Below are positions 804 through 51,800 of a DNA stretch of 64,000 nucleotides, piece by piece. Numbering within the stretch: the first letter of the stretch is position 1; every line of letters begins with the position of its first letter. The position numbers were made by a program, and so were the translations under genes. The notes under the pieces are model-generated. The model worked only from the letters and a program-made list of their open reading frames with translations, was not told the DNA's origin and searched no databases. Where the stretch lies: assembly GCA_016165875.1 (NCBI GenBank), contig JABBOT010000002.1, positions 3,001,540-3,065,539 on the forward strand, given 5' to 3'. The DNA is from Acanthopleura granulata (lineage: Eukaryota; Mollusca; Polyplacophora; Chitonida; Chitonidae).

Positions 804-3800
804 GGATCCTGCTTACATCAGAAGCCTTCTAAAGTATGGATACAGAACCAATTCCAAATATCAGCTGCCATTGTTAAAGATGTAAATTTAAGGCCACAGG
901 CCAAAGAGCTCTTAATTTCCCTCCCTGAACAGAATCTTCAAGTGTGGTAACACTAAACAAGTGATAACAGGACAAACTGTATTTTATTCTATTTTGTATT
1001 GACGGTGTATTTTTTTTTTCGGTATTTTTGATTCCAAATGTATGTTTTAGCTGGTTAAATTTCATTGGTCATACCTGAAAACTGATCCATATCTCAATTG
1101 CTTCTGTTTTTATTTACAAATTCCTTACTCTCTGGCGATCTACTGTGTGAGCATGGGAGTTCAACAGAAAAGCCAGCTCTGTCTAAAAATCTGACCAGCC
1201 TTACATGAATTCAGAAAAGTTACATTTAGCCTGATGATAAACGCTACATGAAGCTGGTTTCCTGCCTGCTTCTCGCTGCACATTTTGAACTGACCATAAA
1301 GATATCAGAATAGTGGAAAATAATTTTTTATATTTACACAGCTTAGCTCATGAAACTGACTCAGTAAACTCATTATGCATAATTTTAAGAAGATGAAAAT
1401 GTTGAAAAACTTTAAGGCTGAACAGTAACAGTCCATGAATATTTAACACAACATCTGAAAAAAAAAACACAACAGAAAACGCACACACACACATACATTC
1501 TGGAGATCGCAAACCGAAACACTTACTTCTTTAGGTGCCATTTAAATGTTGGGAAGTCATCAAGACAACACTTTTTTTCAACAATAGAAGCTCCTTAAAT
1601 TTATTTACACAGCTGTTGAGAAACTATTAAAGTGTCACCTGAATTGGTCCTCATTCGACTGCTGTCTTTGTAACTTACCACTGGCTAATAAGTTGATAGT
1701 AGTACTGGTAAGTGGAGTTCATATTCTACACCCTCTCTGGACGTATGTGGAAAGGTCTGCCAGCAATCTGCGGATGGTCCTGGGTTCCCCCTGGGCTCTG
1801 CCCAGTTTCCTCCCACCATAATGCTGGCCGTTGTTATATAAGTGAAATATTCTTGAGTACGGCGTAAAACAAGAAACCAATCAAACAGAAAAACAATCAC
1901 ATTGTACACAACTAATAACATGCTGTTCCCTCAGATTGTATGTCTGATCATCGCCCACTGTAGATTCTGGTGCAGTCACTCAGCAAACAAGAGGTGTACA
2001 CAGACAAACAGGGGTAAGCTGCAGAATGACCACTTACCTGAGTGTTGACCACTGTCATGGTGAAGGTACTATCAGCAGGTGTGGATAACCTTGATGTTCT
2101 CTGGACTTATGTGGACCAACTCCTCAGGTGTTCACCAGTTGGATGTCCACTTACCTGAGTGTTGACCACTGTCATGGTGATGGTACCATCAGCAGGTGTG
2201 GATAACCTTGATATTCTCTGGATTGATGTGGACCAACTCCTCAGGTGTTCACCGGTTGGATGTCCACTTACCTGTGCGTTGACCACTGTCATGGTGATGG
2301 TACCATCAGCAGGTGTGGATAACCTTGATGTTCTCTGGATTGATGTGTACCAACTCCTCAGGTGTTCACCAGACGGATGTCCACTTACCTGTGTGTTGAC
2401 CACTGTCATGGTGAAGGTACCATCAGCAGGTGTGGATAACCTTGATGTTCTCTAGACTGATGTGGACCAACTCCTCAGGTGTTCACCGGTCGGATGTCCA
2501 CTTACCTGTGTGTTGACCACTGTTATGGTGATGGTACCATCAGCAGGTGTGGATAACCTTGATGTTCTCTGGACTGATGTGGACCAACTCGTCAGGTGTT
2601 CACTGGTCGGATGTCCACTTACCTGTGTGTTGACCACTGTCATGGTGAAGGTACCATCAGCAGGTGTGGATAACCTTGATGTTCTCTAGACTGATGTAGA
2701 CCAACTCCTCAGGTGTTCACCGGTCGGATGTCGACTTACCTGTGTGTTGACCACTGTTATGGTGATGGTACCATCAGCAGGTGTGGATAACCTTGATGTT
2801 CTCTAGACTGATGTGGACCAACTCCTCAGGTGTTCACTGGTCGGATGTCCACTTACCTGTGTGTTGACCACTGTCATGGTGAAGGTACCATCAGCAGTAT
2901 AACCTTGATGTTCTCTAGATTGATGTGGACCAACTCCTCAGGTGTTCACCAGTTAGATGTCCACTTACCTGTGCGTTGACCACTGTCATGGTGAAGGTAC
3001 CATCAGCAGGTGTGGATAACCTTGATGTTCTCTAGACTGATGTGGACCAACTCCTCAGGTGCTCACCAGTCGGATGTCCACTTACCTGTGCGTTGACCAC
3101 TGTCATGGTGAAGGTACCATCAGCAGGTGTGGATAACCTTGATGTTCTCTGGATTGATGTGGACCAACTCCTCAGGTGTTCACCAGTTAGATGTCCACAT
3201 ACCTGTGTGTTGACCACTGTCATGGTGAAGGTACCATCAGCAGGTGTGGATAACCTTGATGTTCTCTAGACTGATGTGGACCAACTCCTCAGGTGTTCAC
3301 CGGTCGGATGTCCACTTACCTGTGTGTTGACCACTGTTATGGTGATGGTACCATCAGCAGGTGTGGATAACCTTGATGTTCTCTGGACTGATGTGGACCA
3401 ACTCGTCAGGTGTTCACTGGTCGGATGTCCACTTACCTGTGTGTTGACCACTGTCATGGTGAAGGTACCATCAGCAGGATAACCTTGATGTTCTCTGGAT
3501 TGATGTGGACCAACTCCTCAGGTGTTCACCAGTTAGATGTCCACATACCTGTGCGTTGACCACTGTCATGGTGAAGGTACCATCAGCAGGTGTGGATAAC
3601 CTTGATGTTCTCTAGACTGATGTGGACCAACTCCTCAGGTGTTCACCAGTCAGATGTCCACTTACCTGTGTGTTGACCACTGTCATGGTGAAGGTACCAT
3701 CAGCAGGTGTGGATAACCTTGATGTTCTCTAGACTGATGTAGACCAACTCCTCAAGTGTTCACCAGTCGGATGTCCACTTACCTGAGTGTTGACCACTGT

Positions 3801-6800
3801 CATGGTGAAGGTAGCATCAGCAGGTGTGGATAACCTTGATGTTCTCTAGACTGATGTGGACCAACTCCTCAGGTGTTCACCAGTTAGATGTCCACATACC
3901 TGTGCGTTGACCACTGTCATGGTGAAGGTACCATCAGCAGGTGTGGATAACCTTGATGTTCTCTAGACTGATGTGGACCAACTCCTCAGGTGTTCACCAG
4001 TCAGATGTCCACTTACCTGTGTGTTGACCACTGTCATGGTGAAGGTACCATCAGCAGGTGTGGATAACCTTGATGTTCTCTAGACTGATGTAGACCAACT
4101 CCTCAAGTGTTCACCAGTCGGATGTCCACTTACCTGAGTGTTGACCACTGTCATGGTGAAGGTAGCATCAGTAGGTGTGGAGGTGTGGATAACTTGGATG
4201 TCCTGTAGACTGATGTAGATCAACTCTTCAGGCACATGGTTCACGAGAGAGATGCCAAGACCGCCCTTCAAGTTCAGGGTCAACTATGAATAAAAATAAA
4301 AGTACAAAAAACAGAATTCAATTAAATGTCACCAATCGCTAACCAACAAAAAAGAAATTCATACCTTGATTGCTCATAACATGAGCTATGGTTCGCAAGC
4401 TATCAAGTCAAATAGTACGGCGTTATAGATTGGTATTTACATACAATGCATAAAATAGTGCCGCAATATGCCAATTATACAATACAGTTTAAGCTCACAT
4501 ATGTTCAGTGTAAAGTCACAGCTTTCCTTCTGAACAGGGACAGTTTATCAACTTACACGAAGGTCCCATTGGTTATCTCCTCTGTCCAGGTCAGATTTTT
4601 CTCCAGACAGGGCTTTCACATCATCACCATATAACAACCAATCGCCATCTGAGTTAATGAGCTTCTGCAAAGCAAGCCAGAATATCAGAAACATGATGAC
4701 ACAAAATGAAACAAATTTGTGGAATGTGAAAACATTGCTTCTCCCTTTTAATATATTAAACCATAACACTCTGTTATAAACAGTGTAGAGGCCCAAACTG
4801 TTTAAAAACCCCAAAGTTTTAGAAATTGTACAAATTTGCATACAAATCTTTACACAAAATAGCATTGTATTCTTAATTTAAAACCTTTAGTATTTACAAG
4901 AATGCAAAAAAAAAAGAAATGTGGAGGGGGTAAATAATTATATACACGTGTAACTCAATATAAAAAATGTAATAAAATCATAACCATCTGCCTCCTGATT
5001 TAAAGCTGCAGCCTAATACACAGAGAATGGGATTCAGACATGTGAACTCAATGCTCACAGGCCTGATTGTTTTCAAGTGTTTTAATCATCTGACACAGTG
5101 ACGCCCTCCTCACACATGAAAGCCATGAAACAAGAATACATATTTGGTACAAGGCCTTACCTTTGCAGACTGGATGTCTGAAATTTGCAGGACTCGTGTG
5201 GGACCATCCATAAGGATATGAACAGCCAGACAGCCTGAGCCTGGTCTGAGGCGTTGTCGTGAGATCAACATGTGCAGGGGGACAGACTCTGTCTTCTTGG
5301 GGTAGGGGCCAATCACAGCTATGGCTCCTGCCAACACAAAAGTAAATAGCACTGCTAAACTACTCATACCCACAACAAAAGAGAATCAGGCATGTTTGGC
5401 CACCCATTTAATTTTCTGAGAGCTACAATCAGCAAATAACATACACTAAAGAGAGATACACATAGGTGAATTGCTGTTAACAGAGCAGTTTTTATATCAG
5501 TGTATAAAAATGTATTTCCATTCCCAATATGGAAATTAACAATGCAGAAGAGTTACATAACATATACTGAAACTTATATGAACATCCACAAAATTGAAAA
5601 CAGGAAATGTCTTGGAGAAACTGACCATCTTGGAGTCCATCCACACCAGCAATAGCCTGGACTGTCAGATCACCCAAGCTACAGCACAGCCGACCATCCT
5701 GAATAAAACATATCACACAGATGATGGATTTTAGTTAACAGAAAACTGCTTTTTAACCTGTTGCAAATGTAAACATAGTGGACAAAGAAAAGTGATTTAT
5801 TCATTTATTACCTTATTTTAATGGCTTTTAACACTGTACTCAGGAATTTTTTTCACTTTTGGGACGACTGTCAATTTTTGAGCGGATTGTCGAACAAGTA
5901 TCCCTGTCAAGTTTACAGTGGATTATTGTATCACAACATTGGTTGACTGATTTAAGTAACCCATTTCCACAGACCACATATGCTAATTAGCGTCCTGTGG
6001 CAGGTTGTGTCAGGAATATCACACATGAGACTATAGGTACAGTAATTACCTAGAGTTCCATGGAATTTTTCACATAATACTACAGTTTAAGCTAAATCTT
6101 ACGTATTTCCAGTAGGATATCATCCTTCCTCACAAACAAACCTACAAACATGTTTCTAAAATTATTGGAACTCTCAGAATTATTTATTTATTTGATTGGT
6201 GTTTTATGCCATACTATGAATGTTTCACTTGTACGACGGCGGCTAGTGTTATGGTGGGAGGAAACCGAGCAGAGCACAGGGGAAACCGACAACCATCCGC
6301 AGGTTGCTGGCAGATCTTCCCAAGTACAGCTGGAGCGGAAGCCATCATGAGCTGGACTTGAGCTCACAGCGACCGCATTGGTGGGAGGCTTCAGGTCACT
6401 GCGCTGCGCTAGCACACTAACCAACACAGCCATAGAGGGCCCTCTCTCAGAACGAGGAAGTAAATGTAATTCACCTGACTTAAGTTGGCAGGAGGTGCTA
6501 TAAGAACCTACTCACCTCAGAAAAGCTCCATGTCTGCGTGGAGCGCCTCCTCTCGTCTGGTTTCTTCAGCATGAGGGGCACCATCCTCTCTGGCTGGGCA
6601 GCAATGTCCGCAATGTCCAGGACCAGAGCGCTGGTGACGCGTGAGGGGTTGCTGGGGTCACGGGGAGGGGCGGACCCCTCATGCTCCAGCAAACCCTTAC
6701 TCGTCATGCGCCATAACTGACTTCTCTTACCCTGCTCCTGGAATCCACAGAAAAAAATAAGATGAACACAGTGTCATAAAGTAATTCCTCAAAATATTTT

Positions 6801-9800
6801 CCCAAGAACAGTTCAATTTCACAGGAAAATAAGGTCTAGAGATATGACTTGGATGCTGTACATTGTTCTAGAAGGATATTATCCTATCTTCCAAACAAAC
6901 CTTTAAATATCTTTCTATGATCAGTGGACTCTAAGAATCAGGCAAGAAGAGCTACTTCAAATACATTACGCCAACATCTGGTGACTACATGACTACAAGG
7001 TATTTATTTTGTCTTTGTGCAATCAAAGCTAAGGGGCTGGTACTAGTTCATTTTACACTTTACACAGAGTTCTACATTTAGATGACAGCAACCGAGTTTA
7101 TTGATGAGGAAGCTGGAGTAGGTTCCCAACCTACGCCAGGAGCCTGACAATCCTCCTGACTTGCAGCAAAGAGCTGGATTCAAAGTTGAAGTGCGTCAGC
7201 TCTTTGATGTTTTTGACAGCTTTTTGACTGTTCAAACCAACACTTTAACTATCTGAGCCAGCGCTGTAACAATTTGAGCCAGTGCTTTAACTGTCTGAGC
7301 CTGCTTTTAACCATCTGAGTCAGACTTTTAACCATCTGGGTCTGTGCTGTAACTGACTTGGCCAGTCCTTTAACCATGTGAGCCAGTTTTTTAACCACTT
7401 GAGCAAGCGTTTAACTCTCTGAGCCTGTACTTTAACCATCTGAGTCTGCACTTTAAATGTCAGTAATTGATTCCCGTCTGGTCCTAAGACAGCACATGCA
7501 CAGTGACATTAACCAAGAAAATAATTCAAGGCCGTCAGCAACCAAAAAAATATTTTCAAACAAGAGATGTTACCTTTTTCCTGAAGACCACATGGCTGTT
7601 GTGTTGTACATCCAGTACCAGTGTCCTTTGCGAGAGATCACCTGGTCTTTCAGCTGGGTGTGCAAACCTGTATCAAAAAACACATGTTGTTTACTATGTA
7701 ACATATTAATGAGATACACTGTACATAAAAACTGAGTGTGAAATTTGTACATTATAAGCAATTACTGTAAATGACAAAAAATGTCATTTTGTCCTAAGCT
7801 GCCCATAGTGCATGATTGGAGAGTTCAGTTGCTCTTAGAAAGGTATTTAAGGTTTATTTACTGAGTAGGATGATCTCCAACTGGAAAAAATGTTTCAGTG
7901 TTTCAGTGCATAATGTATTTTTTTATGACATTTATTTGCCTGTTAAAATGCTTTCTGAAGAATGAAATATTAGGTCAATGACATATAAATTGTCAGAAAC
8001 ATGTAATACACTGTTACTGTTGTTCAATTCTTTAAATTGAAAAAAAAAAAAGAAAAAGACAGCAGTGCAATCAATTTTAATGGCTTTGTTTTTTTTATTT
8101 TGTTTGGGTTTTTTTTTTGGACTGTTTCAGGTGTGGAAATTACATCTCTGAAAGAATCTCCTGAACCAATGAGAATGCTAAGTGTGTGCGTTTGAACGCA
8201 GATTTGCGCTAATAAACTTTCATCTCTGCCTCACCCTTTCGGAAAAGTTGCTGTTGCAGCCAAGTAGATGAAGTTCTGATAGCAGAGTTGCTCCCCTTCT
8301 CCTAAGATGTCCATGCTGTAGGTGGCACTAGTTCCTCCTTGAACCCTGACTGTGATGTGTGGTGGTAAAGTAGGCTCATCCCAGGAGTAGTTAACTACAA
8401 CACATGACACAGAAAACTGCAACAAGCATTTCTTATTGTATCAGCCTTAGTGATATGGTGTGAGAATGTATAACATTGGTGTGCACATTCATTCCCTGGT
8501 TTAAAAGGTAGTGTACTTGTGATCACATAAAATCCTCCACAATCAAAGATATCACATAAATTGGTGTATGAAACATCCAACAACATTTGTTTTCATTTTA
8601 CAAGATCTAGCCACATTCCAGGAAAAATAAAACCTGTTATACATAAAATCATAATTATTTCTACAGATTTATTTGGCATTCATCTGTACACTCACAAGAT
8701 GTGTGTTCCCGGACTGATGTTTTTAAGGCGTCACTGGTGATTTTGGACTGGTGGAAGGCAATTGGCACCTGGAAATACACAACATACATAATTTGTCCAA
8801 GCAATATCCTAAAATTTTACATACTGATTCACCTAGGGCCTTAAATCAAAACATTGGTGGTGGTATACACTCAGTTCCAGTAATGTTTTCAACAATTGTT
8901 CACCAATGCAAATTATTGTCCCTCTGTATGCAGTGAAGGAATCTGAGCATTTAGCTCTGGCAGAGGTGTGAAAATATATCTTCGACTGGCAATACATTCA
9001 TATCAAGAAACAAAAAACATTTCACTTGGGTTAGGGCAAGAAGCCAGTTGAAGTCTGCTTTCTAAACTTCTCAACAAACTACATGTATGTTGTGACAAAA
9101 ACAAATCTTAACAGGAGTACAAATTCCCAGAAGGACTACTGGTAAACATTCTGCTATTAACCTGAAGTTATTTGGAGAGTCAGCACACTCATGTAGTGAC
9201 ACGTTGAAGATTTATAAGAAGTATTCTACGTGGAGAATACTCACCTCAGAACAGTTGTCGATCCTGAAGGGAGGTGGAAACTCCTCAGAATCTGTGAACA
9301 CAATAAAAAATGTGGAGCCTTCCAGTAAGATTTCTACTCTTAGCAGAAGAGGAGTCCCAAGGTCAAAATTCCTGAAACATGAAAAGATAACAAATTAGTT
9401 GTACATGATATAAATTTTTGTTAAAAGTGTTTAATCAAAGTTAACCTTTTTTACGCTAATTATGCATTCCACAGCTGTGCAAGCCTTACAAGTCATCAAT
9501 GGGTTGAACACCAATGCACATGTACTAACAGAGTTCATGCTAATCCAAAAATAGTATGAAAAAAAATACAACAGGGCTGGGTGGAGTCTTAGCTACAGGA
9601 ACAAACTTTCTGCGTAAAATTACACTGCAAAAGTGATGGGTGAAGTTGAAATTATTAAACTATGTGCATCTAAAATGTCTCCATTTCAAAAGTGTTACCA
9701 AACCTAATGACAAACAGTTCCAATATTACCTTTTAAGCACATACATCACCAAAACCTGTTGGTTCACGCAATCCTATATCTGATATTCCAAGATGATTTG

Positions 9801-15800: not shown

Positions 15801-18800
15801 CTAACAATGGAAAAGTCTGTTCATCTATCAATAGACGTACATTGCTCTATATTAGGCAAGTAACTGGTGAAAGTTTCCCACAAACTCAATTTGTGGAGAA
15901 CTCTTTTGTAATGGAAGGTAAAAAAAACCCTCTTGCTGGGAACTTTCACAACTTACAGGAAATGATCTCAAACCTGATAAAATAATTAGGTACCAGTGTC
16001 TATCTAAAGGAGATATGTTGGGGCGGGAGGGGGGGGAGAGTAATTTTGACAAGAAATATTCTACACACAGAGTTAGCTTTGTCAATCATCATGGTAGTAG
16101 AGGTGTAGCGATGTGCATTTGAATGGCACATAAACTCTATTGCTAGAGTTTAGCCTTCAGTGTAGTGTTGTATTGATAGTAGTGCCAGTCCAGCTGCTTG
16201 CAGAATGTAACATGAGCCTGACCTGGTGCTCCGTTGCACTAGCCCCAGAGACAGCTGACACCTGTTCAACTTGGACAGCACAAGACTATTAAGGCTCAGT
16301 GAAATACCCTTCTAGGGGTCTGTTTTGTGACTCCAGGTGCAAAATGATCAAAACATATTTTCCACAAATTCTGCAATGGAACCAATCTAGAAAAACATGT
16401 GAAACCATGCTGATGTAACCATACAACTAGGGGAAGTAACAGTCTCAGCTTGTAGACATCAGACCTGCCCTTCTTGACAGACAAGAATACAAGTAACTGG
16501 CTCATTCCACAGCAACTTTTTTTAATAAATGCAACTGTATTTGTAAAAATGCATTTTATCCAAAATTTCCCAAATGCACATGATAAATCATCTCACATCC
16601 ATTTCACAAGATATCTGCATGCTTTCAGCTGGTATATTAGACACATTCCCAGAAAAATTCATTGGTTAAGGTTAAAACTTGGAAGTCAGAATATTTATAC
16701 CAGCCATTTGCAGCCTGCAAAGTCTTTCCCATTCATTTGGTTAGATTACATAATGTCATCTTCTCACAGATCAGTTCTACTTTGGTCTGACTTTATGTTG
16801 TGTTTACATATGTGACTGCCAAACATTTCCGAGCCCTAGAAATCTCTGCAGCACTTGCATGGATACATAAGTTTTCGAGCTGTGAACAACAGGCTGTCTG
16901 AACTGTAGGAACGTTCACTCAATCACTGAGTCCAACGTATAGAATTACTTGGTAAAACAGCAACAAGTTCAGGAAGGCATTTATAACCACGTGCTTCTTA
17001 GAAACAAAATGCGGATGCAATAAACAATGCCATGAAGTATAACGGCCAGGCAAACCAGACAATCTGTCAAACAAAATCATCGCCAAAGTAACTGTAGGTC
17101 GGACGTCTCAGTTTTATACTGAAGTTTCACGGCACTCACACCCCTGGGACCCGTTTTACGAATCTTGAGTATGATATGCTATTTCATACATAACTACCCA
17201 GGTGACGCATCTCTACCACATGTGTCGACAAGACAGTTATATTCGTTTCCTAGTAACAGACTTATATTAGAGACAAAAAAAAAAAAGGTACAAAAATGCC
17301 TTTTCTAGTCTAACACTGAATTAGTAGGACAATCATGTTGAGAATGTATTGAACCTGGACCAGGAGCAATTGTGACTTACAAGAAAGGGTATTCCTTCTC
17401 TGTGTAGCTGAAGAGAAGCGGTGAGACACTGCGGGCAAGCTCATGTTCCTCAAACTGACCAGCGGCCAGAGACGACGTGAAGTCCTGTTTGAAGATGAGG
17501 GGTAGACCACACCTGTTCACCAGCCAGTAGGGAGCAGAGACAGACACCTGACAAACACAGAACTTATACCAGTTAGTCTACCAGCTATCAAAGGAAACTG
17601 TAGTAAACAAGAAATAAGTACATTTAGAAGTGTCAAATCTCAGGCTTTTCATGAAAAACTTATGTACCTGTCAAATTGGGTTTTGAACTTGAACTCAGAG
17701 GTATCTGCTAACAAAATTTTATCAACAGCGAACAATATCTGGAGGAGTTATTAAATGGAACTGAAGCATAACGAACAGATCAACAGAGACAAATTAATAA
17801 ACCTTTTGACAAACGTGTGAGATAAAATTGAGAATATTATTAGCAATTTTAGTACAAAGTAAGTATACTGGTCACCAAGAAACATAAACAAAGTTCCAAA
17901 AGAGGAAAGTTAAATAATGACACAAACAAATATTGCCCTTTATTTTTTCACTTGTACATAGTCTTCTGCAATGAATAGCATTTCACAATGCAGGTTATCA
18001 GGTTTCCAGCAAATTGACTGAACCCAGCAAATTGACTGAACCCAGCAAATTGGAATCATGGAGGAAATAAGGAACTGGACAGTACATGTAATATGCAACA
18101 TCACTGGTAACATTGATCTATGGGTAATACATTAATATATGTGAATATATTAATCCAAACCATCACAAAACCTGTGCAAATTCACAATGGCTCTTGACAT
18201 TTCTCATCAAGTCAATGTCATCGTGCACCTTTTTATGTAAATGGTCCATGTTAAAGACAGAGCATCAAAAATTTCACAGGACTTTAAAAATCTGACTGAC
18301 GGGCCCAAAAATTGGATACCTCAAAAACTTGAAGGAGAAGCAGACAGCAACACATAAACCTGCTTGTTGCAGCTGTACATCTTCACAGCTATTTGCGCTC
18401 ACCCTAAGTGATCCTCCTTTAGGTGCAGCCAGTCTGACGGTGAGCTCCAGCAGTCTGTTCTCCGTGTCATGCAGCCTAAGCTTGACCTTGTACTGGGTGG
18501 TGCCCGGGGGGATGTTCAGTTCCCTGCACGTGGGGAAGTTCTCCAGTAGGATGCCCAGGAGTTGGTGCTGACTCGGGTCAGCCTGTAGGTACAGGGTACA
18601 CATTTCATTATCACATTCACAGGATACAAATTTCATTATCATATTCACAGGATGCATACTTCCTTATCATATCCACACGATACACACTTAAATATCACAT
18701 CCACAAGATACACCCTTCAATATTATATCCACAAGATACACATTTCATTATCACAGCAAAAAGACACAAATTTCACTACCACATCCACAGGACACAAATT

Positions 18801-21800
18801 TCACACTAACAGGATACACACTTCATCATGTTTTCAGGAAAAACATTTCATTATCACATCCACAGGATACACATTTCATTATCACAGCCACAGGACACAC
18901 ACTTCATTATCACATCCACTACTTATCTGTCTTCATTAGGCACAGAAAATACATGTGAGCAAAAGTGGCCGTTAAACCCTGATTAACAAACTTTCACACC
19001 AAAACAAAAAATGCACACATATTTCACCAGAAAACAGAACAGAACTCACAGATGTCCACAAGACAATAATTAACCAGAAAATTTATATTTTTCAAAGTGT
19101 GCTTGTATATGTATGGTCATCGTGATCACACACAGCTACTGTTTCTTACTCGACTCAGTGTTCACAGAACGTTGTTAATTTGTCAACATACCAACACGAT
19201 GAAGATGCAAACATCAAATCTGACATGATCCCATTTGAAACACTGTAACTGACCACCAACTCCATTATATTATTTGTTTTCGTCACTGAAAGTGCGCTCA
19301 AAAATTTTCTCTCACGTGTTAAAGGACTAAATCTTAGTAAATGCAGATGTTTAATCCCTACTAACTCACGCACCGTCCTGAAGTTTGCACAGGATGTTAA
19401 CTGTAACTTAAAGGCACCTGATCATGATATATGATCCTTGGTCTTACTGTGAGGAGTGCGGCCTCTTTGCCAGACTTGATGCTGCCGCTGATGTCTGTGT
19501 CCTTCATGTAGTAGTTGAGCTCTATGGGCAGCAGGTTGATGAGGACAATGGTAGGCTGCAGGCTGATGGTGTGACCCGGCAACATGTCCGTCTGCTGACA
19601 CATTCTCGAGTCCTCGGGATAGTTCTCTCTCTTCACGGCCACACAGAATCTGCGGCAGAAACATACACAGGTTTAGTGGCTGCAGTCCACCATGTGAAAG
19701 TAATCTGTGTAACATCTCACTGACTGTGTAACATTAGTGTATCTGAGTGAATTTGTGATTTATTCATTTGTGTGATGTTTTGCTGGCCCCACAGTTAAGA
19801 ATTTTTCAGTGATACAAAAGGTGGTCTGCTTTACGGCTGGAGAAAACTCAAGGGCCCAAGGCAAACCACTGATTTTTGGGAAGTTATAGTGGGCCATATC
19901 TATACAAGACAGATGGTCTTTGGCAGTAGTTAAACTGGACCAATGGTCACAAAAGTTTGGCCTACTGCTTATTGTGTCCAACGAACCAAACTATGACAGC
20001 ATGAGAGTCATGACTGGATTTCTCCACTCACATTGTTAGTGAGGCATTTGTTAAGACTACCACTTGTCTTACACCACTATCATGTGCACTCTGTCATGAT
20101 GTCCTGTGATGTGCCTCCCCTCATATCCTATGGCTTCTTCGTTTCACCCACTGCCCAATAAGATTATTCACATCAATTCTTACAAAGTGAAATTTCACAT
20201 GGCTACATCTTGCTACATCACCCAGTGAATCAAGCTTACCTGTAAGGTGTATTGGAGGCAGGTAACCTACATATCCTAACGCTGTTGTGAGTCTCTCCAG
20301 CTCTGGTCACATGGTTCCAATGAATGGCTCTGTCACAAAACTCTACTGGCCAATCGGAAGGCTTGATCCAGAGGCGGGATGGCACGTGCCTCAGAGGGAT
20401 AGGGACTTTACCATTGACAGGAATCTCCAGCATTGTGAACCCTGCAGTCAGCAAGAACCATTATGGTGCTTACAAACTTAAATTACCACAGAGCTTATGC
20501 ACAGAAGAGTTCATTTGCTTGTCTGTATCAGTCTGCATCAGCTATGTTACATAAAAATTTATGGATGGGTTAGGAAAAAATTTTGCCCGTATCTTGACCT
20601 TTGACAAAGCACCAATCTACTAAATTTGGTTAGGACTTGGATGTGGATCATAGAACTTCTTCTATGATTCCTCACCATTGTGAGGAATTGATATGGAAGA
20701 ATGAGGAGACTTGAACATTTATTTATATGCATGATACTTAAAGATGTTCTCAGGTCCATTTAATTTATAGATAGCAGTCTGGCTCGTCGACGATGGAACT
20801 GGGTAATGCCGCATCCCCCTACCCCTCCAAAACACACAACCAATGAACAAGTACCTGCAAAAACCTGCTGACCACATGGGTTTAACTATAATACATAACG
20901 AAAATCAGACTGATCAATCTTAACCCCATCCAGCTAATTTTTTCATGTGTTATCAGAAATACACCATCTGGGAAAACAACTCTTAACGCCTTTTACCACT
21001 CAACACCCGAAAATATTTTACTACCTTTCACACATCACTGTGTATTGTCAAAAGAAAAATAGAGGCAGCATTTGACACTGCAACCTTTACTGGGATAATT
21101 TGGGAACCACTAACATGACTGTTCTAGTTACCGTTGTCATTCGTGTGAACATTTTCCATCCTAACGTTCACTGTAGAGGAGAGCTGGTTCACCAGCATCA
21201 GAGCTGATCTCACAGTAACCACCTTTTTGGCACTTCCTTCCTGTTGTACATCAAACACTATACGAGCTGGGGGCAGGGCAGGACCCTGCAAAACATAAAC
21301 ATGTACATGCTGTATGCTGTGCAGTAAACAAAATGTGAGTTGGGGGCAGGGCAGGACCCTGCAAAACATAAACATGTACATGCTGTATGCTGTGCAGTAA
21401 ACAAAATGTGAGTTGGGGGCAGGGCAGGACCCTGCAAAACATAAACATGTACACACTGTATGCTGTGCAGTAAACAAAATGTGAGTTGGGGGCAGGGCAG
21501 GACCCTGCAAAACATAAACATGTACATGCTGTATGCTGTGCAGTAAACAAAATGTGAGTTGGGGGCAGGGCTGGACCCTGCAAAACATAAACATGTACAT
21601 GCTGTATGCTGTGCAGTAAACAAAATGTGAGTTGGGGGCAGGGCAGGACCCTGCAAAACATAAACATGTACATGCTGTATGCTGTGCAGTAAACAAAATG
21701 TGAGTTGGGGGCAGGGCATGTCCCTGCAAAACATAAACATGTACACACTGTATGCTGTGCAGTAAACAAAATGTGAGTTGGGGGCAGGGCAGGACCCTGC

Positions 21801-24800
21801 AAAACATAAACATGTACATGCTGTATGCTGTGCAGTAAACAAAATGTGAGTTGGGGGCAGGGCAGGACCCTGCAAAACATAAACATGTACATGCTGTATG
21901 CTGTGCAGTAAACAAAATGTGAGTTGGGGGCAGGGCAGGACCCTGCAAAACATAAACATGTACACACTACATGCTGTGCAGTAAACAAAATGTGAGTTGG
22001 GGGCAGGGCAGGACCCTGCAAAACATAAACATGTACATGCTGTATGCTGTGCAGTAAACAAAATGCGAGCTGAGGGCAGGGCAGGACAGGGCAGGACCCT
22101 GCAAAACATAAACATGTACATGCTGTATGCTGTGCAGTAAACAAAATGCGAGCTGGGGGCAGGGCAGGACCCTGCAAAACATAAACATGTACATGCTGTA
22201 TGCTGTGCAGTAAACAAAATGCGAGCTGAGGGCAGGGCAGGACCCTGCAAAACATAAACATGTACATGCTGTATGCTGTGCAGTAAACAAAATGTGAGTT
22301 GGGGGCAGGGCAGGACCCTGCAAAACATAAACATGTACATGCTGTATGCTGTGCAGTAAACAAAATGTGAGTTGGGGGCAGGGCAGGACCCTGCAAAACA
22401 TAAACATGTACACACTGTATGCTGTGCAGTAAACAAAATGTGAGTTGGGGGCAGGGCAGGACCCTGCAAAACATAAACATGTACACACTACATGCTGTGC
22501 AGTAAACAAAATGTGAGCTGAGGGCAGGGCAGGACCCTGCAAAACATAAACATGTACACGCTGTATGCTGTGCAGTAAACAAAATGCGAGCTGAGGGCAG
22601 GGCAGGACCCTGCAAAACATAAACATGTACACACTGTATGCTGTGCAGTAAACAAAATGTGAGTTGGGGGCAGGGCAGAACCCTGCAAAACATAAACATG
22701 TACATGCTGTATGCTGTGCAGTAAACAAAATGTGAGTTGGGGGCAGGGCAGGACCCTGCAAAACATAAACATGTACACACTGTACGCTGTGCAGTAAACA
22801 AAATGTGAGTTGGGGGCAGGGCAGAACCCTGCAAAACATAAACATGTACACACTACATGCTGTGCAGTAAACAAAATGTGAGTTGGGGGCAGGGCAGAAC
22901 CCTGCAAAACATAAACATGTACACACTACATGCTGTGCAGTAAACAAAATGTGAGTTGGGGGCAGGGCAGGACCCTGCAAAACATAAACATGTACACACT
23001 ACATGCTGTGCAGTAAACAAAATGTGAGCTGAGGGCAGGGCAGAACCCTGCAAAACATAAACATGTACATGCTGTATGCTGTGCAGTAAACAAAATGTGA
23101 GTTGGGGCAGGGAAGAGCCCTGGACAACATACACATGTACACACTGAATAATGTGCAGTAAACAAAATGTGACTTGGGGGCAGGGCAGAACCCTGCAAAA
23201 CATAAACATGTACACACTGTATGCTGTGCAGTAAACAAAATGTGACTTGGGGGCAGGGCAGGACCCTGCAAAACATAAACATGTACACACTACATGCTGT
23301 GCAGTAAACAAAATGTGAGCTGGGGGCAGGGCAGAACCCTGCAAAACATAAACATGTACATGCTGTATGCTGTGCAGTAAACAAAATGTGAGTTGGGGGC
23401 AGGGCAGAACCCTGCAAAACATAAACATGTACACACTACATGCTGTGCAGTAAACAAAATGTGAGCTGGGGGCAGGGCAGAACCCTGCAAAACATAAACA
23501 TGTACACACTACATGCTGTGCAGTAAACAAAATGTGAGTTGGGGGCAGGGCAGAACCCTGCAAAACATAAACATGTACATGCTGTATGCTGTGCAGTAAA
23601 CAAAATGTGAGTTGGGGGCAGGGCAGAACCCTGCAAAACATAAACATGTACACACTGAATAATGTGCAATAAACAAAATGTGAGCTGGGGGCGGGGCAGG
23701 GCAGAACCCTGCAAAACATAAACATGTACACACCGTATGCTGTGCAGTAAACAAAATGTGAGCTGGGGGCAGGGCAGAACCCTGCAAAACATAAACATGT
23801 ACACACTACATGCTGTGCAGTAAACAAAATGTGAGCTGGGGGCAGGGCAGGACCCTGCAAAACATAAACATGTACACACCGTATGCTGTGCAGTAAACAA
23901 AATGTGAGCTGGGGGCAGGGCAGGACCCTGCAAAACATAAACATGTACACACTACATGCTGTGCAGTAAACAAAATCTGAGCTGGGGGCAGGGCAGAACC
24001 CTGCAAAACATAAACATGTACACACTACATGCTGTGCAGTAAACAAAATGTGAGTTGGGGGCAGGGCAGAACCCTGCAAAACATAAACATGTACACACTA
24101 CATGCTGTGCAGTAAACAAAATGTGAGTTGGGGGCAGGGCAGAACCCTGCAAAACATAAACATGTACACACTACATGCTGTGCAGTAAACAAAATGTGAG
24201 CTGGGGGCAGGGCAGAACCCTGCAAAACATAAACATGTACACACTACATGCTGTGCAGTAAACAAAATGTGAGCTGGGGGCAGGGCAGAACCCTGCAAAA
24301 CATAAACATGTACACACTACATGCTGTGCAGTAAACAAAATGTGAGCTGGGGGCAGGGCAGAACCCTGCAAAAACATAAACATGTACATGCTGTATGCTG
24401 TGCAGTAAACAAAATGTGAGTTGGGGCAGGGAAGAGCCCTGGACAACATACACATGTACACACTGAATAATGTGCAATAAACAAAATGTGAGCCGGCGGA
24501 AGGGCAGAACCCTGCAAAACATAAACACCTATACACTGTATGCTGTACACCAAACCCAAGGTAGTGGGGCAAAATCCTGGAAAACACTAATATCTGTACA
24601 CTTTATGCTGTACATCAAACACTTGACCAGTTGTTGGTAAGGCAATGCCCTGGCAAAGACAGATAAATTCCTTAAATCACACATGTAAATCAGAGCAGTT
24701 CAGACCACCAGCTTGTCACCAATCTGAGCTGAAGCATTTTGTCGAGAGGATGCCTAGAAAAGTGTGGTGGTTTCTTCTAGACTCTTGTTGGTAATTCATG

Positions 24801-27800: not shown

Positions 27801-30800
27801 ACTTACTCGGAGGGAGTGGTGGTGACTGTCAGGATCTTACCTGGAGGGAGTGGTTGTGACTGTCAGGAACTTACTTGGAGGAAGTGGTGGTGACTGTCAG
27901 GAACTTACTTGGAGGGAGTGGTGGTGACTGTCAGGAACTTACTTGGAGGGAGTGATGGTGACTGTCAGGAACTTACCTGGAGGGAGTGGTGGTGACTGTT
28001 AGGAACCAGAGTGTACTGCCCGTTTCATTCTTCAGTGTAAATGGCACAAACGGGACCCTTCTCTTTAGGCAGTCTGAGGTGGGAGACCCTTGGGACTGAG
28101 TGGGTGATGGTTTGCCACCTGGTGGAGAGCTGCTCTCCTTAAGGCTGTCAGACAGGTGACAAAAGCATCATAACAAATTGTTGTGACTTCACTAGTACTT
28201 GACATTTAACTCAAAAATATACAAAACTCCACAATGAAAAAATATATTAATTAACGAAAAGTCAAAAATACAACAGGCAAAATCCACTACATAACCAGAA
28301 ATCTACATTCCAGAATCCACACCACAATTAAATATATTAGCAAAACATAAAAATGAAAAAACAATAAAAATCACGAAATATTATATACAATAAGATCAGA
28401 TTAGGTTTTCCCTACCGGCCCCCCCTCTCCCCAAAAGCCACAGATGAGACTTTCTTACCTGGCAGTGACTTGATAGTAGTCCTCAGTCCACACTGATTTG
28501 GTCTTACTGTATTGGTCAATCAATGTGCTGGTCAGGTTGAAATTCAATACTTCAGTGGCTGAGGCAAAATGGCATAAACAAATAAAACCATTAGTCAGTG
28601 TTGAAGTACACAGCCACGTAACCAAAAAAATTGTTGTGCGTATATTTGCAGTGGTTGTTACAACAATGAAACAGGATTACTGTCAAGTCTAGCTCGCATT
28701 TTCTTGGCATCGACCAGTTTAGATACGTACTGATTATAACTCTGGTCACTCCATCACTGATTCAGTTTACAACACATAGGATGTAAGGAGAGAAGAATTT
28801 ATTTACGAATGATAAATGTCCATGGAGACCAGTTGTCGTCTGATACATGTGACCTCTCTTACACTTGCAACTAGATAAAAACTAATCTGGCTGCAGCATA
28901 TGCATACACACAATGTATAATTGTCAAACGGACAATCAAACAATGGCTGATCCAACATACATGTTGATGGTAAGAAATCATCGCCTTTTAACTGGACAGG
29001 AGAACAACATTCATTCGGCAGCTTATCATACCTGATATTACTACATCTAGCTTATTATCCACTTGTTCCCAGTCTGCCTTGCACCTGTCAAAATAGTAAG
29101 AGATAATTTAGCACAAACAGTACATAACTAGTTAACCATGAAAGTCTTCCCAAATGAAGATTCATCTCAAGCATGTTACCCATGTCTTTAGGACACATGT
29201 ACCTCCAGGAGCAAACTCTGCCAGAGAATCATTTCTTTATTTGTCGGCATGCTCAAGAAAATTTACCAACGGGTGTCAGTTTTACCAGAGGAGGATAATG
29301 GAGCACTCTGGGTAAACCACCTTTCACAAGTAAATGTACTTCATGATCATAAACTTTTCCATGCGTGACACTCAGATGTATGTCACCCTGGTGGACGGCA
29401 TCTGTTAGGACCCTCATGTAACACTGCCTTAATTGTCCTAGAAGTGCCCTCCCAGATCAATGCCTGGAGGAGAACAGCAGAGGCTGAGGAATGTAACTGA
29501 TTCCCTGTCCCAGGTAAACTTTGTAAACCGACACAAATAAAAATAGTAAATAACGCTTGGGCATTCTATCTACCTACTGATAGTACCCCCAAATGACCCG
29601 TGATACAGTGGCTTATTGTCCTGAGTTTGAGAGTTCTGTTGAATTTAAAAGGGTGTTTTGAGGTTTGTTTGGAAGATAGTATGATATGTGAGTGAAAAAT
29701 ATTTTATGACATTGATTTGCCTCTAAAAATGCACTTTTGGGGGCAAAATTTTAGATTATTTATAGTATATTTAATAAATGTATCTGTCTTGCAATAATGC
29801 AACAAAAAAAAATATATTGAAAACTTGAATGAATGGTGTGCCTTAATATCAAAACTAGTTCTGCTGCACTTTGCAAATAATGATACTGAGGGGTGTAAGC
29901 ACAAGAACTACATGTTATTTAACACAGATTGATGACTTTCTCTCACCTCCAGGGCTCCACAAAGGGTTCCCACCCCGACAGTGCTCTGTTGTAGTAATCC
30001 CCCATCACCTGGAACATGGCTTTTCCACTCTTCTTAGTCCCAAACGACTGGTGAAATGTCGTTCCTGAGGACAAAGACAGATTCATTTATTTGATTGGTG
30101 ACGGAAATAAAAAAAAAAAAAAAAAAATCCCACACTAACCGATCACTCATCACCAGGAAAATGTACCCAACAAACTTCCTGCTTTAAAGCCACTGTTAAG
30201 TCAGCAAGAGTTGGTTTCAAATCTGCATCCTCAATGTCCAGGGTACACACAGATATTCTTTAACCACCAATACCAGAGAATGGATAACATGCTTTGATAG
30301 CAGAATGCAAAAAAAATATCACACAAGAAAATGGGGACCCAGCGAATGCCAGGCAGCAGGACCCATAGGCCATTTTATTCTCGTCAACTGTTTCATATCC
30401 AACTTATCAGGATGATGTCACATTGAAGACAGAATGACGTCACAGTAGAAAGTGATGCATTGTAAAATTGTACATGTTGTGGAACAATCTCTTTTTGGCG
30501 TGACAAGGGTTTGAGGTCCTGGTTCACACTAGCACCACCTCACAGGATTAAAAAGTAGGCCTCCTTCCCAATCCATTTACTTGCATGCCTTGGTTATACA
30601 ACTGTCCAAGTATGTCCATTATATACATACTTTTTTGCCACTATGGAGGTACAATCCTAAACATAAATTACAGCTGTTATCCAACAGATATGCCACGGGC
30701 CACACTACTACCTATCTACAACATCTGGTAGTCCCCTGATAACTTCATGGTAATGAAAAAAAAAAAAAAAAAAAATGAAAAAGATGAGATGGGGTGAACC

Positions 30801-39800: not shown

Positions 39801-42800
39801 TCTGGGGTGGGAAGCACTCGTCAAAAATGCTTTGCGTCATTCCCTGGGCGTACTGAGACCCTGAGAGCAGGCTGTTATCTGTGGGTTGGGCCAGTATCTT
39901 CACCACGTCCCCAGGAGAGGACGTGTGGGAGGGGGTGCTGGCGTGTGTTTCCGACGACGCCATGAACTTGATGGTGCCCTGCTGGCCATCAAACAGGAAC
40001 TTGTTGGTGAGGGTGAGGTTGCCGAGGTCCATCACGAGGATATCAGTGCTGCGGGAGCTGTGAGGCACCAGGATGACTGGTGTGTCAGCCTGCATGTCTA
40101 GCAGCAGACGAGTCTGAATACTGGCTGTCTCACTCACCTGGAGGGGACGGAACAATACAGTATTAATCTGCGGGATATTTTAATTAGTTTTGTTTCTGGT
40201 CAATTTTTATGAAAACTAATGCTCTTGTACTGAGACAAGAAAAACAATTCAGCCTGAAAAGCAACACTCAAACAAAAAAAAGTGTTGCAAATCATCAACT
40301 TACCTTACCTTAAATGGCCTAGAATATTGACCCAAGAGTGAATTATTAGAAGCAAATAAATGTCATAAAATATAAATTTTGGGGCTACAACTTACACAAT
40401 TATTCCAGTAGGATATGATCGTATCTTCTTATCATGGCATACTGTAGATATCTCCGTTAATCAATCATCATCAGGATTTGATAAACATATTCAACAGTCT
40501 ACTATGCACAATACATGACTGATACTGTGCGCTACTGTACAAAACGTGTCATTTACAGTTGCAACATTATTTATTGAGACGATTGAAACTGCAGCATTAC
40601 TTGGCCTTCATTCAAACACTTTCCTACACTCCTCAAACTCACCCTTTTGCCAGCAGAGGCAGTTCTAATCCTTCCCAGGTGGAAATGTCTGCCAGCAAAA
40701 TGCAGATGGTTGTAGGTTTTTCTCAGGCTATGTCCAGTTTCCTGCCACCATAATACTGCTCTTGTATAAGTGAAATATTCTTGAGTACAGCATAAAACAC
40801 CAATCAAATGGATGACAAAGAAAAAATCCTTTCCAGCATGTTCTGAAGTTCTAAGAAAAGCAGAGGTTACAACCTCTCCAACTCACCTTTTTGCCAGCGG
40901 ATGCAGCCCTCATTCTTCCCAGCACATCCTGAAGTTGTAAAAAGTGCTGACAGAAGGCTAAGGTTTCTGCCTGGAACCTGTTAGTGTGGACGTATCTGAC
41001 AGAGGCCATGCGCAGCTTCAAGCTGATGTCATACTCCCTCTCCAGGTTAGGGTCAGGAAGACCGTATCTACAAGAAATGAGAGCGCATATGATACAGAAC
41101 TTACACTCTTGTGTCAATTAAGGTGGTAGATGCAGTTCTACAGCTTTAAGTCAACTCACATTATAACTTGGCAAGTTTTAAGGACATGATATGTTGTAAA
41201 CATTCTGCTTTGTCAATTTTTTAGAAGCATTCAAAAATAAAATTAACCCGAAGAATTAGGCCAAATTCACAATAAACATGTCTTTAATACTTTCTTTTTA
41301 TCTTCATTCAGTGTTAAGGGTTTATTTTTCTATTTGCTAGGTGCTTAAAACAATAGTGAAGAATTTTTCACTATAACAGTGATGGCCAGGGCTAGCATCA
41401 AGCCAGAGCAGGCATCACATCTTTTGAAGAAATGCATGTTTTGTACTGGGTAATAAACTCAGATAAAGTGATCAGTTAGAGAAAAGACAATGACTTGGGC
41501 TTGGTTGCCTGAAACCTTCTTGCACTATGTCCAAGTAACTACCGAGATAACCAGTACTGTAGGCATACTGTTGCCATCGCTGTTACATGCCCGAAATACT
41601 GAAACGGCTTTATGCATGAGGACCCTGAACACGTTGATCTCTGGAAACAGACTCACTTGAAGAAGTCAAAGTGGAGGGCATGTTGGCCGACAGTCATGAA
41701 CCTCTCCCTGTAGAGGTTCCCCTGGGGGGACTGGTCCCTGAGGGAGATGCTGCCTAGCTGACCCTTCACCATCATGTTCTCATCCCTCATGGCCATGTGA
41801 GCCGTTAGTCCCGACACACTGGCCTTAGCCAGCTCGTACTCAGGCTTGTTCAGAGTGAGGGACAGGCTCTTCACGCTCAGGTCTACCTCGGTGTTCACTG
41901 CATCTTCTGTCATACCTGGAAGAGATTTAGTTGTGTGCTTATTTGTTGTTCGGCACCATATTCAAGAGTTTTTCACTCACATGTTACTGGTCAGTTTCAT
42001 GGATGGAGGAAGTTAGTCCATTTCCACAAGGTGGTGTACAGATATGTCCCACCATATTGGTGGATGACTTAGATGTGGTGACAAGGCTGCCAAAGAGCTC
42101 GCCTGTACGGGATAGATTTTAATATGCGATACACTAAGTCAGGAATTCGGTAAATTACGGTATTTAATATACACACACAGAATCAACGATGGAATGTCCC
42201 CCTCGTGTTACTGTGCTCTACATGTGTGCAATCCCTGAACTCAATATATGCAGAATTTTTAAGATACCACCCTAACATTTTGTTTAACACTGATTCTAAT
42301 ACACAGTGCACTAAGTCAGAAATTTGGTACTTTACAGTATTTCATATGCACATGTGGAATAAACGATAGAATATCCCCCTCAAGTTATTGTGCTCTGCAT
42401 GTGTGCAAACCCTGAACTCAATATATGCAGAATTTTTAAGATACCACCCTAACATTTTGTTTAACACTGACTCTAATACACAGTACACTAAGTCAGAAAT
42501 TTGGTACTTTATAGTATTTAATATGCACACGTGGAATAAACGATAGAATATCCCCCTCGTGTTATTGTGCTCTATATGTGTGAAAAAACCCTGAGTTCAA
42601 TACATGCAGTACTTTTTAAGACAGCACCCCTAACATTTTGTTTAACATTGCTTTCCCTGTTCTTGGATGCCAATCCGATGCCAATGCTCAGGGTACGACA
42701 TAAGTTATGCCTATACTTAGTACAGGTGAGCTAACAAGTGGTCTTCAACGAACACTGGGCTGCAGCACAATGCACCTGAATTACACAATGTGGCTAATGT

Positions 42801-48800: not shown

Positions 48801-51800
48801 TGTCTATTTGTAACTTATAATATTGTTACAGCATGGAGGGTAAACTACATATATAAAAGAGCAGTCATGAAAATTATGGAGCATATACAAATCAACTTAA
48901 TCTGTATATATACCTCTGAACTAACATTACAAACTAAAACAACAGGCCACATACCACAAGTTTTTGTGAGAAGCAACCAACAGCTCAAAGTCCGGTCCAA
49001 ATGTTTGTACTGCGTCAACCACCAGTAAGCTGTGCACAGTGAAGGAGACAGAGGTGGTGTCGGATCTCTTAGTCAGGGTGGCCCTCACCCCTCCAACCTG
49101 CAGCTCTGCTATGGCCTTACCTGGGGAGATAATGCATTTATTTATTTATTTATTTGATTGGTGTTTTATGCCATACTCAGGAATATTTCACTTATATGGT
49201 GATGGCCAGCATTATGGTGGGAGGAAACCGGGCAGAGCCCAGAGGAAACCCATGACCATCCGCAGGTTGCTGGTAGACCTTCCCATATACGACAGGACAA
49301 AGGTTATATGAGAGGGGAATATTTATTCATTCTGTGCATACTAACACAACTATTTTATACATAATGAAGTAGCCAACATTGGCTTATCAACTTTTTTTTA
49401 AAATTTTACTGTTCTGTACTTCTGGTTTCACAACAGAGTAAAGTCCCTTTGTGTTATACTGTTTCCACTGTTGGGATAAAATAATAATACCTTTCTCATA
49501 CCAAGGCAGTTGATGTACCGAAGAAAAGATGCTACAAAAAATTTCGATGTTTACGCACTTTCTAAAATGCCACAGCAAAACACTATCCTGACAATAACTT
49601 TTACTATCCATGTTAAATTACACATATTGACCCTAATGTTCTCTGCTGTTGTAACTTGAACCTGGAAATTTACATATTACCAGAAGCAAAACAGTAAAGA
49701 AATGATACACTTTTTCTTATTTGCACAAAGAGCACACATATTACCAACACTGTTCAAAGAAATTTTTTTTTCCAATCACATTTGACAATCCATGTCATGG
49801 AATAGACGCATATTCACAAGCAGCATTTGGAAACTGTTATAGATTATGCACAATCAAATAACAGACGAGAATTAGTATCCGTATTGAGCTATGTTTCAAC
49901 CATGGAGCCAGATGTGTATTACCTTGACTCTGTATCTGCAGTGAAGCCTCCTTGATGGTGAATTGCATCATGAGCCAGCGAGACTGTTCTACCATGTCAC
50001 GCTCAGTTCCTTCCCCTGCTCCTCCTATAGAGCTGCCACTGGGAAGTCTGCAAAGGTAAACCACATTACTAGTATTAATGACATCAGCTACTTATCTCAC
50101 CTTACACCAAAGGTAACCCACATTACTAGTATTAATGACATCAGCTACTTATCTCACCTTACACCAAAGGTAACCCACATTACTAGTATTAATGACATCA
50201 GCTACTTATCTCACCTTACACCAAAGGTAACCCACATTACTAGTATTAATGACATCAGCTACTTATCTCACCTTACACCAAAGGTAAACCACATTACTAG
50301 TATTAATGACATCAGCTACTTATCTCACCTTACACCAATTAAGTCCTAAAACCAACTGTAAGATTGCATTTCCCATCTACAGGACAGTCAAAGAAATACA
50401 TTTTTTTTTTAACATCTGATATTTGATATTTTCCTATCATATATTGCAACAAGATCTGATATACGTGAAACTCACATTAATCTGATTACATACATCTGTC
50501 AGCTCAATTTGTCTATTTTCTAAATTAAAATTCTAACTTAAGATATTAAGCTAACATCAAAATGTCAAGTGCTCCTCTGTAGCAGTAGAGTTCAAAATTT
50601 CTTCAAAGAGGCTGAGCACATTTTAATATAATCACTAAAACCTTTTTTTGGAAACCAGCACATCAGTGTAGAGATCTGACCTGTTAGTTGAGCTCTGGTT
50701 TGCTGCTGCACCCTTTGCAGGTCCTGACATGGTAGGACTGGAGTCAGCAGAGGGTGAAGCCTTGGTTGATGGCTTCCTATCTCCAGTAACCAACAACATA
50801 CATGTTCTCAAGGCTTGCACCTAAACACACAAATGTATTGATACATGTACATCAGTCTGTGAAGATGGAAAGTACTCTGAGTGTATCCATCAAAAGAAAT
50901 GGATATATTCTTGACACTTTATTCATACAGTGAGAACAGAGTACTTGTTCATGCCCATCAGATGTAAGCTTGCATGCAAACAGATGCTTAACATTTTTGA
51001 AAACACCCCCTTGGATGAAATGGCAGGTCCCTGTTGTTCATGTTACAAGTACTGGACAAAAATCTCTTGGGTCATACTACTTTCACCACAGGGATGTTTT
51101 CAAAAATGTCAGGCACGTATTTGGTGGAGTGAGATATCTTGAATGTTTTGGGAAGATTAAATATGGCGCTACATTGCCCTCGTGCATGTAGGAAACTCAC
51201 TGATGGCAAATTTTGACTGCTGATATACATATATAAACTATATCAGCACAATTACTTACCTTTTGCTCGTTGATGTGAACTGTCAAAGTGGGAAGAGTCC
51301 CTGACAAGGTGGCACTAGGCCACTGAGGATCTGTGGTAAACAATAAACGTCTGGAAAAACAAACAAAAACAAACTTACTCACTGACATATGTTCAACTCC
51401 AATAGCTGGTTACAAAATTACACCTTCTCACTTTAGTGATTTATTTGTTTAGAAAAAAACTGTATAACTACAGCTGTATGGACTACAAATAATACAAAAG
51501 CCCGCATAAGAGCATAATTCAAGAGTTGATATTAAATCAAAGGTCAAACCAAGTCAACAAATGAAACAACATTCCATAAAGGTGCAAGTACCTTTCTAAG
51601 AGGAGAGAAATGCTAAATCTGTCAATCACGTGTAAATGACTGGTCCCTTTGAAGTGGGCATGTCTCCAGTTGTCCTTGGCCCTGCCCACCAACACCTGCA
51701 GGTCAGACAATTCCAAGATATATCTGAAATAAAAGGAAATGTCATACAGGCTTAATTCAGATAACACTGAAATGGACTTATTTTTGGAACCTTGAGTTGA

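Follow-up and report, generated by a model that had tools for sequence, protein, structure and literature searches.

Minisatellites copying exon-intron junctions of VPS13D in the chiton Acanthopleura granulata

The human gene IFI6 (6-16, G1P3) carries a minisatellite with a repeat unit of 12 bp, which Turri, Cuin and Porter reportedly described in 1995 as offering multiple splice donors. Two downstream repeat units of IFI6 are described as being used as donors (PMC4526556), and human genes lying in segmental duplications have internal tandem repeats at exon-intron boundaries, with 27 intron modifications (PMC2812944). A gain of introns through tandem duplication, either of a stretch that crosses a boundary or of AGGT segments, is described for the RNA-dependent RNA polymerase (RdRp) gene of potato (PMC4974935, which also cites ATP2A1), and human tandem repeat genes such as UBC hold 792 introns in 262 repeats, 77 of them with lengths that are multiples of the unit (PMC10809524). 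Here we analysed a stretch of 64,000 nucleotides from the chiton Acanthopleura granulata (assembly GCA_016165875.1, contig JABBOT010000002.1, positions 3,001,540 to 3,065,539 of the forward strand; hereafter the window, whose own coordinates are used below), in which six tandem arrays had been predicted to lie on or beside junctions of the gene VPS13D. We find that VPS13D has five junction-spanning arrays, one of them outside the window, and two further arrays that adjoin acceptors. Among 10 of 18 publications on VPS13D and tandem repeats, the titles and the opening parts of the abstracts contained nothing on such arrays.

VPS13D and the arrays at its junctions

The gene is VPS13D on the minus strand. 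Its exon model was merged by hand from a de novo prediction and from homology to VPS13D proteins of molluscs and others, and the 65 exons inside the window, for which the original prediction had counted 67, join into a single stop-free frame of 3957 codons. All introns of the model are GT-AG with one exception of GC-AG, the GC-starting intron being at 55774. The draft translation retrieved full-length molluscan VPS13D proteins, and those of Potamilus and Haliotis aligned with the 3957-residue translation from the first to the last residue at 46% identity; the protein matches of a long minus-strand frame at 44228-46258 also included two named VPS13D. Pfam matches to VPS13_N and VPS13_VAB were found in two of the three protein pieces tried, and the third piece gave no match. 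A tree of 20 proteins placed the chiton VPS13D as sister to those of cephalopods, gastropods and bivalves with a support of 1.0, the position that a chiton should take. Two further exons were located upstream of the window. With these counted in, the exons contacted by the arrays of 117, 34, 159, 73, 57 and 28 bp are numbers 66, 46, 47, 49, 22 and 52, as predicted except that exon 22 had been called 21. There are 128 exon-intron junctions in the window.

Tandem Repeats Finder (TRF) was run on the window, arrays with a score of 50 or more were kept and overlaps were merged, which gave 13 arrays, all with a period of at least 18. These consist of head-to-tail units, from tens of bp to about 200 bp long, as minisatellites do. 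All six reported arrays were recovered, and together with the exon model the TRF results bore out their positions: four of the 13 (117, 34, 159 and 73 bp) span a junction, and two do not span one but begin close to an acceptor, at 3 nt (57 bp) and 8 nt (28 bp). The remaining seven arrays are 98-378 nt from any junction. The claim that four arrays copy part of an exon with its donor or acceptor was likewise confirmed, by the register of the units, and a fifth such array, of 108 bp, was found outside the window. The arrays and the exons that they touch are as follows.

2026..4181, minus strand: 117-bp array, 18.5 copies (TRF); the last part of the exon at 4134-4283 and its donor are copied
4134..4283, minus strand: exon that is the source of the 117-bp array through its 3' end and donor; 48 nt lie inside the TRF array
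27056..28006, minus strand: 34-bp array, 28 copies (TRF); 30 nt of the exon at 27977-28144 and its donor are copied
27977..28144, minus strand: exon that is the source of the 34-bp array through its 3' end and donor (from homology)
26131..26658, minus strand: 159-bp array, 3.3 copies (TRF); 72 nt of the exon at 26587-26713 and its donor are copied
26587..26713, minus strand: exon that is the source of the 159-bp array through its 3' end and donor (from de novo prediction and homology)
21264..24546, minus strand: 73-bp array, 44.8 copies (TRF); the acceptor and 22 nt of the exon at 21132-21285 are copied
21132..21285, minus strand: exon that is the source of the 73-bp array through its 5' end and acceptor (from homology)
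50051..50338, minus strand: 57-bp array, 5.1 copies (TRF); 3 nt from the acceptor of the exon at 49923-50047, non-spanning
49923..50047, minus strand: exon adjoining the 57-bp array (from homology)
18591..18919, minus strand: 28-bp array, 12.1 copies (TRF); 8 nt from the acceptor of the exon at 18403-18582, non-spanning
18403..18582, minus strand: exon adjoining the 28-bp array (from de novo prediction and homology)
-4442 to -3493, outside the window in the 3' part of VPS13D: array with units of about 108 bp (TRF, as a 323-bp period)

The exon beside each array is intact, and the array copies differ by substitutions. Conserved VPS13D sequence was present in the exons flanking every array on both sides, which says nothing on the age of the introns. 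Three of the six unit lengths (117, 159 and 57 bp) are indeed multiples of 3, as had been pointed out, which is not notable when two are expected by arithmetic.

In the 117-bp array there are 15 exact CAG/GTAAGTGG donors, the real one counted (a slash marks the splice site throughout), and the donor stretch of the unit was invariant across 10 aligned copies, which had been selected by that same motif. A block of 545 bases at 97% identity or more amounts to partial homogenisation. Multi-unit blocks of this array (2026-4181) recur at an identity of at least 97% with shifts of 580, 351 and 814 bases, suggesting recent block duplication. The 34-bp array holds 24 GTA(A or T)GT sites including the real one. 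The true donor is CAG/GTAAGT; CAG precedes just 2 of the 24 sites, and 22 have A before GT, mostly as CAA/GTAAGT, so that the copies look like weaker donors. When 18 copies of this unit were aligned, the donor positions were among the most variable. Three donor places were found in the 159-bp array, two of them AAG/GTG and the middle one mutated (AAG/ATGAGT). Three acceptor-like CCTACAG words also occur in this array (26131-26658), one upstream of each exon copy, and the copies thus resemble small pseudo-exons. The 73-bp array carries 43 GCAG/GG acceptors including the real one, 42 of which share one identical 18-base context, and the units of about 108 bp copy the end of the exon at -3555 to -3349 with its GAG/GTAAGAAT donor, giving nine donors in total.

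The array copies were also considered as genuine exons and rejected: the de novo model gave 113 exons, many of which were array copies, whereas the final list has 65, and the de novo model had 61 of these exactly. Copies of exon edges can thus mislead gene predictors into calling exons.

Chance duplication weighed against a preference for junctions

We consider it probable that the five arrays are chance junction-spanning duplications that were amplified, and were tolerated since splicing would keep the exon-proximal site. A tandem duplication would have arisen by chance across an exon-intron junction, the duplicated unit would have been amplified by slippage or unequal exchange, and, with the exon and its proximal splice site unchanged, splicing would go on using that site. 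Exon sequence in an array should be harmless only if the exon's own splice site was included, as the extra copies then fall inside the intron; a duplication confined to an exon would change the protein and would tend to disappear, and exon-holding arrays are for that reason expected on exon edges. Minisatellites probably lean towards G+C-rich sequence, and this leaning, the large number of junctions and survivorship would together yield most of the contacts. That copies of the boundary are tolerated, one of the explanations offered by the original prediction, is supported by the intact exons with their own sites and by the extra donors that were found behind stops in three arrays.

To set the contacts against chance, each array was reduced to a single unit, with 21 bp taken for the array at 7243, and these founders were placed randomly; in the window test, one of the 128 junctions was set 2 nt off. 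Under uniform placement, the 4 of 13 arrays that span a junction compared with 1.74 expected (P 0.074), and the 6 of 13 within 15 nt with 2.56 (P 0.024). When founders were kept from being wholly exonic, the expected values were 1.96 (P 0.11) and 2.48 (P 0.020), and with G+C matching in addition they rose to 2.98 (P 0.33) and 3.45 (P 0.073). Restricting the window test to the nine long arrays (at least 150 bp), 4 spanning arrays stood against 1.54 expected (P 0.044), or 2.79 with G+C matching (P 0.27). A test of the whole gene, with approximate 3' junctions, the extra array entered at 108 bp per unit and G+C left unmatched, gave 7 of 16 arrays within 15 nt versus 3.19 (P 0.023) and, for the ten long arrays, 5 spanning versus 1.85 (P 0.018). 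Minisatellites are dense in the region and its flanks, and 1.7-3.0 spanning arrays of 13 are expected where 4 were found, which we count in favour of chance. Arrays cover 13.6% of the window, 12.9% of the 20-kb flank that holds the 3' part of the gene (8 arrays) and 6.4% of the 220-kb flank on the other side (52 arrays). In three predicted gene regions of the right flank, none of 14 arrays touched a predicted junction, a result that is uninformative, the arrays being few and mostly short.

A genome-wide search was made for CAGGTAAGT occurring three times with a spacing of 29-59 bases. There were 95 matches in 20 places (grouped by hand) and none in VPS13D, whose arrays do not fit that pattern. 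Upon inspection of the upstream side at all 20 places, six of the 20 arrays were found to start at the donor of an exon whose encoded protein could be recognised, each in another gene; junction arrays are not special to VPS13D. A PDB sequence search of the adjoining exons identified a FATP2-like protein (5e-12), GABA-B receptor 1 (8.8e-6), leucine aminopeptidase (1.6e-4) and a relative of chain 8w75_D (4.9e-4), and Pfam identified SNF2 (7.5e-13) and MCRS_N (2.2e-7). The four exons identified through PDB had no Pfam match above the cut-off, nor did the exon of a seventh candidate array (L032) match Pfam. By eye, eight of the 20 arrays reach or pass the edge of the readable sequence and six show no exon. 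In 304 kb, seven single CAGGTAAGT words lay outside arrays, and three of these were exon ends, one of them in VPS13D; the exon score applied to single and tandem donors was trained on VPS13D and set after the six arrays had been seen. Tandem donors were thus not seen as exon ends more often than single donors (6/20 versus 3/7, small numbers), a rate that we also count in favour of chance.

Several results weigh against chance as the whole account. Among the long arrays of the window, six of nine lie within 15 nt of a junction versus 2.09 expected (P 0.005), and this holds with G+C matching (3.07 expected, P 0.029), which may itself be too strict because exon-founded arrays become G+C-rich. Over the whole gene, 5 of 16 arrays span a junction versus 2.14 expected (P 0.042), and seven of the ten long arrays lie within 15 nt versus 2.47 (P 0.0023). 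In the genome, a reversed-motif control gave 24 matches compared with 95 for the tandem donor motif, counted as matches and not as arrays. Moreover, the two abutting arrays (57 and 28 bp) fall outside the survivorship account.

A rival proposal is that exon-intron junctions are duplication hotspots, for instance through donor-like words (AG/GTAAGT) that give short homologies between exon and intron. It gains from the nominal excess within VPS13D, from the additional spanning array that appeared once the gene was extended past the window, and from the surplus of tandem donor motifs over the reversed motif. In two donor arrays of other genes (L036 and L039), the exon AAGT at the start of the copy matches, by eye, the AAGT of the donor, which is a possible short homology at the ends of these duplications and would suit the proposal. 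On the other side, spanning has a P of 0.33 under the G+C-matched null, and exon ends are no rarer among single donor motifs than among tandem ones. The motif is also common in its own right: seven single copies lay outside arrays in 304 kb, whereas 3000 permutations averaged 2.1 with arrays included, and this commonness over shuffled versions would account for much of the 95 versus 24. Overall, the junction test ranged from P 0.002 to 0.33 according to the null, the array set and the measure, and the P values are optimistic because the gene and the 15-nt limit were picked after the pattern had been seen. The excess at junctions is modest and dependent on the null, suggestive and not established. 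The earlier statement that the contacts look more than random is marginal, with spanning P values of 0.07, 0.11 or 0.33 in the window and 0.04 over the whole gene; the further idea that duplication tends to start at junctions was not borne out by the genome-wide look at donors, small as its numbers are.

We judge the hotspot proposal improbable. A broader version, in which junctions are the preferred birthplace of minisatellites, splice words seed duplication, introns grow from their ends and arrays with many donors or acceptors occur genome-wide, is in our estimate also unlikely. The junction pattern is real and mostly ordinary, and this ordinary reading is more likely than either junction preference or selection. 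If hotspots did exist, they would tie splice signals to genome instability, for which the evidence here is thin. If junction arrays prove common in a minisatellite-rich genome, they would offer a natural way to test how splicing picks one site from dozens that are nearly identical, as well as a route for intron growth and possibly for the lengthening of exon ends.

Possible effects on splicing, and repeats away from junctions

Reading was continued from each exon to every further motif-matched donor. For the 117, 34 and 159 bp arrays, all of the extra donors found (14, 23 and 1) lie behind an in-frame stop. Eight extra donors lie in the 108-bp array; the first two (+108 and +216) are in frame and open, and their use could add 36 or 72 residues to the protein. 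In the 73-bp array, 14 of the 43 acceptors are in frame, the real one counted, the ones at +219, +438 and +657 being open as well. The 73-bp unit (21264-24546) is mostly stop-free, with overlapping minus-strand open frames of up to 533 codons. Judging from the sequence, most copies would be inert or yield a faulty message, and a few could lengthen the protein.

It is conceivable that selection maintains the arrays because repeated sites regulate splicing, through alternative sites, U1 recruitment or controlled frameshift and decay. The identical context of 42 of the 43 GCAG/GG acceptors would agree with this, as would the invariant donor stretch in 10 copies of the 117-bp unit (though these were picked by motif), the open in-frame sites of the 108-bp array (first two extra donors) and the 73-bp array (+219, +438, +657), and the use of downstream repeat units as donors in IFI6 (PMC4526556). 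The in-frame stops before the extra donors of three arrays speak against it, as does the 34-bp array, where the G before GT is absent in 22 of 24 sites and the donor positions are highly variable. We regard selection as very unlikely, and found no evidence for the earlier suggestion that copies of the boundary are selected. Slightly less credible still is that some isoforms translate part of the 108-bp array (36 more residues with each copy) and of the 73-bp array (73 more with every three copies): their in-frame extensions are open, and the 73-bp array is so in several frames for up to 533 codons, but just 2 of 8 extra donors and 3 of 42 extra acceptors could be used. That the arrays are assembly artefacts is the least probable of all, since substitutions distinguish the copies, the contig measures 47 Mb and 20 further places in the genome have tandem-donor arrays, even if copy numbers may be approximate in an assembly that is a Nanopore/Illumina hybrid (PMC7850002).

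Three of the window's arrays away from junctions, which count against the junction pattern, are listed here together with a dispersed repeat.

7243..7444, minus strand: 21/62-bp array (TRF), nearest junction 129 nt away
42130..42647, minus strand: 177-bp array, 2.9 copies (TRF), nearest junction 214 nt away
62942..63157, minus strand: 54-bp array, 4 copies (TRF), nearest junction 378 nt away
1742-1897, 6218-6442, 12082-12215, 49137-49297, 51965-52233 and 60433-60530, both strands: copies of a dispersed repeat

The first of these was considered as a seventh junction array and discarded, as the supposed exon at about 7460 was refuted by homologs that put the exon at 7574-7667; the 54 and 177 bp arrays were set aside as too far from junctions. 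An array at 64383 on a predicted right-flank exon was likewise dropped, the exon being judged false because it lies inside a VPS13D intron. The dispersed repeat occurs in several copies on both strands, with matches of about 90-225 bp, and is presumably akin to a molluscan short interspersed nuclear element such as RUDI. The unit of the 54-bp array (62942-63157) is related to a single copy at 30485-30552, and this array may have originated from a mobile element. A dynein heavy chain-like gene is located about 170-220 kb from VPS13D (contig 3238000-3285500), and the dynein AAA_6 family gave 92 exon matches in 18 genomic places (counted by hand).

Comparison with known systems

Four of the arrays (117, 34, 159 and 108 bp) lie at an exon end and have units with donor motifs, which places them with IFI6, where a minisatellite likewise supplies multiple splice donors. 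In VPS13D, by contrast, the units are 34-159 bp long, an acceptor is copied besides donors and five arrays occur in one gene; moreover, downstream units are used in IFI6, whereas use of the extra sites of VPS13D would be mostly blocked by stops.

With the human genes in segmental duplications (PMC2812944), VPS13D shares minisatellites at exon-intron boundaries and a gene structure changed there, but those are recent primate paralogs with transcript support, whereas this is a conserved mollusc gene read from DNA. The likeness to potato RdRp is that a boundary-spanning duplication copies splice signals and the copied exon piece turns intronic; the chiton arrays lengthen one end of an intron, whereas a new intron is the feature of potato RdRp. 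Introns embedded in tandem repeats link the chiton gene to UBC, but the VPS13D repeats sit at one intron end, and a dual-specific donor/acceptor site is a feature of the UBC type. The kind of array described here is thus already known; what is notable in VPS13D is that five of them occur in one gene, that an acceptor is copied besides donors, and that more than 40 copies of that acceptor are present.

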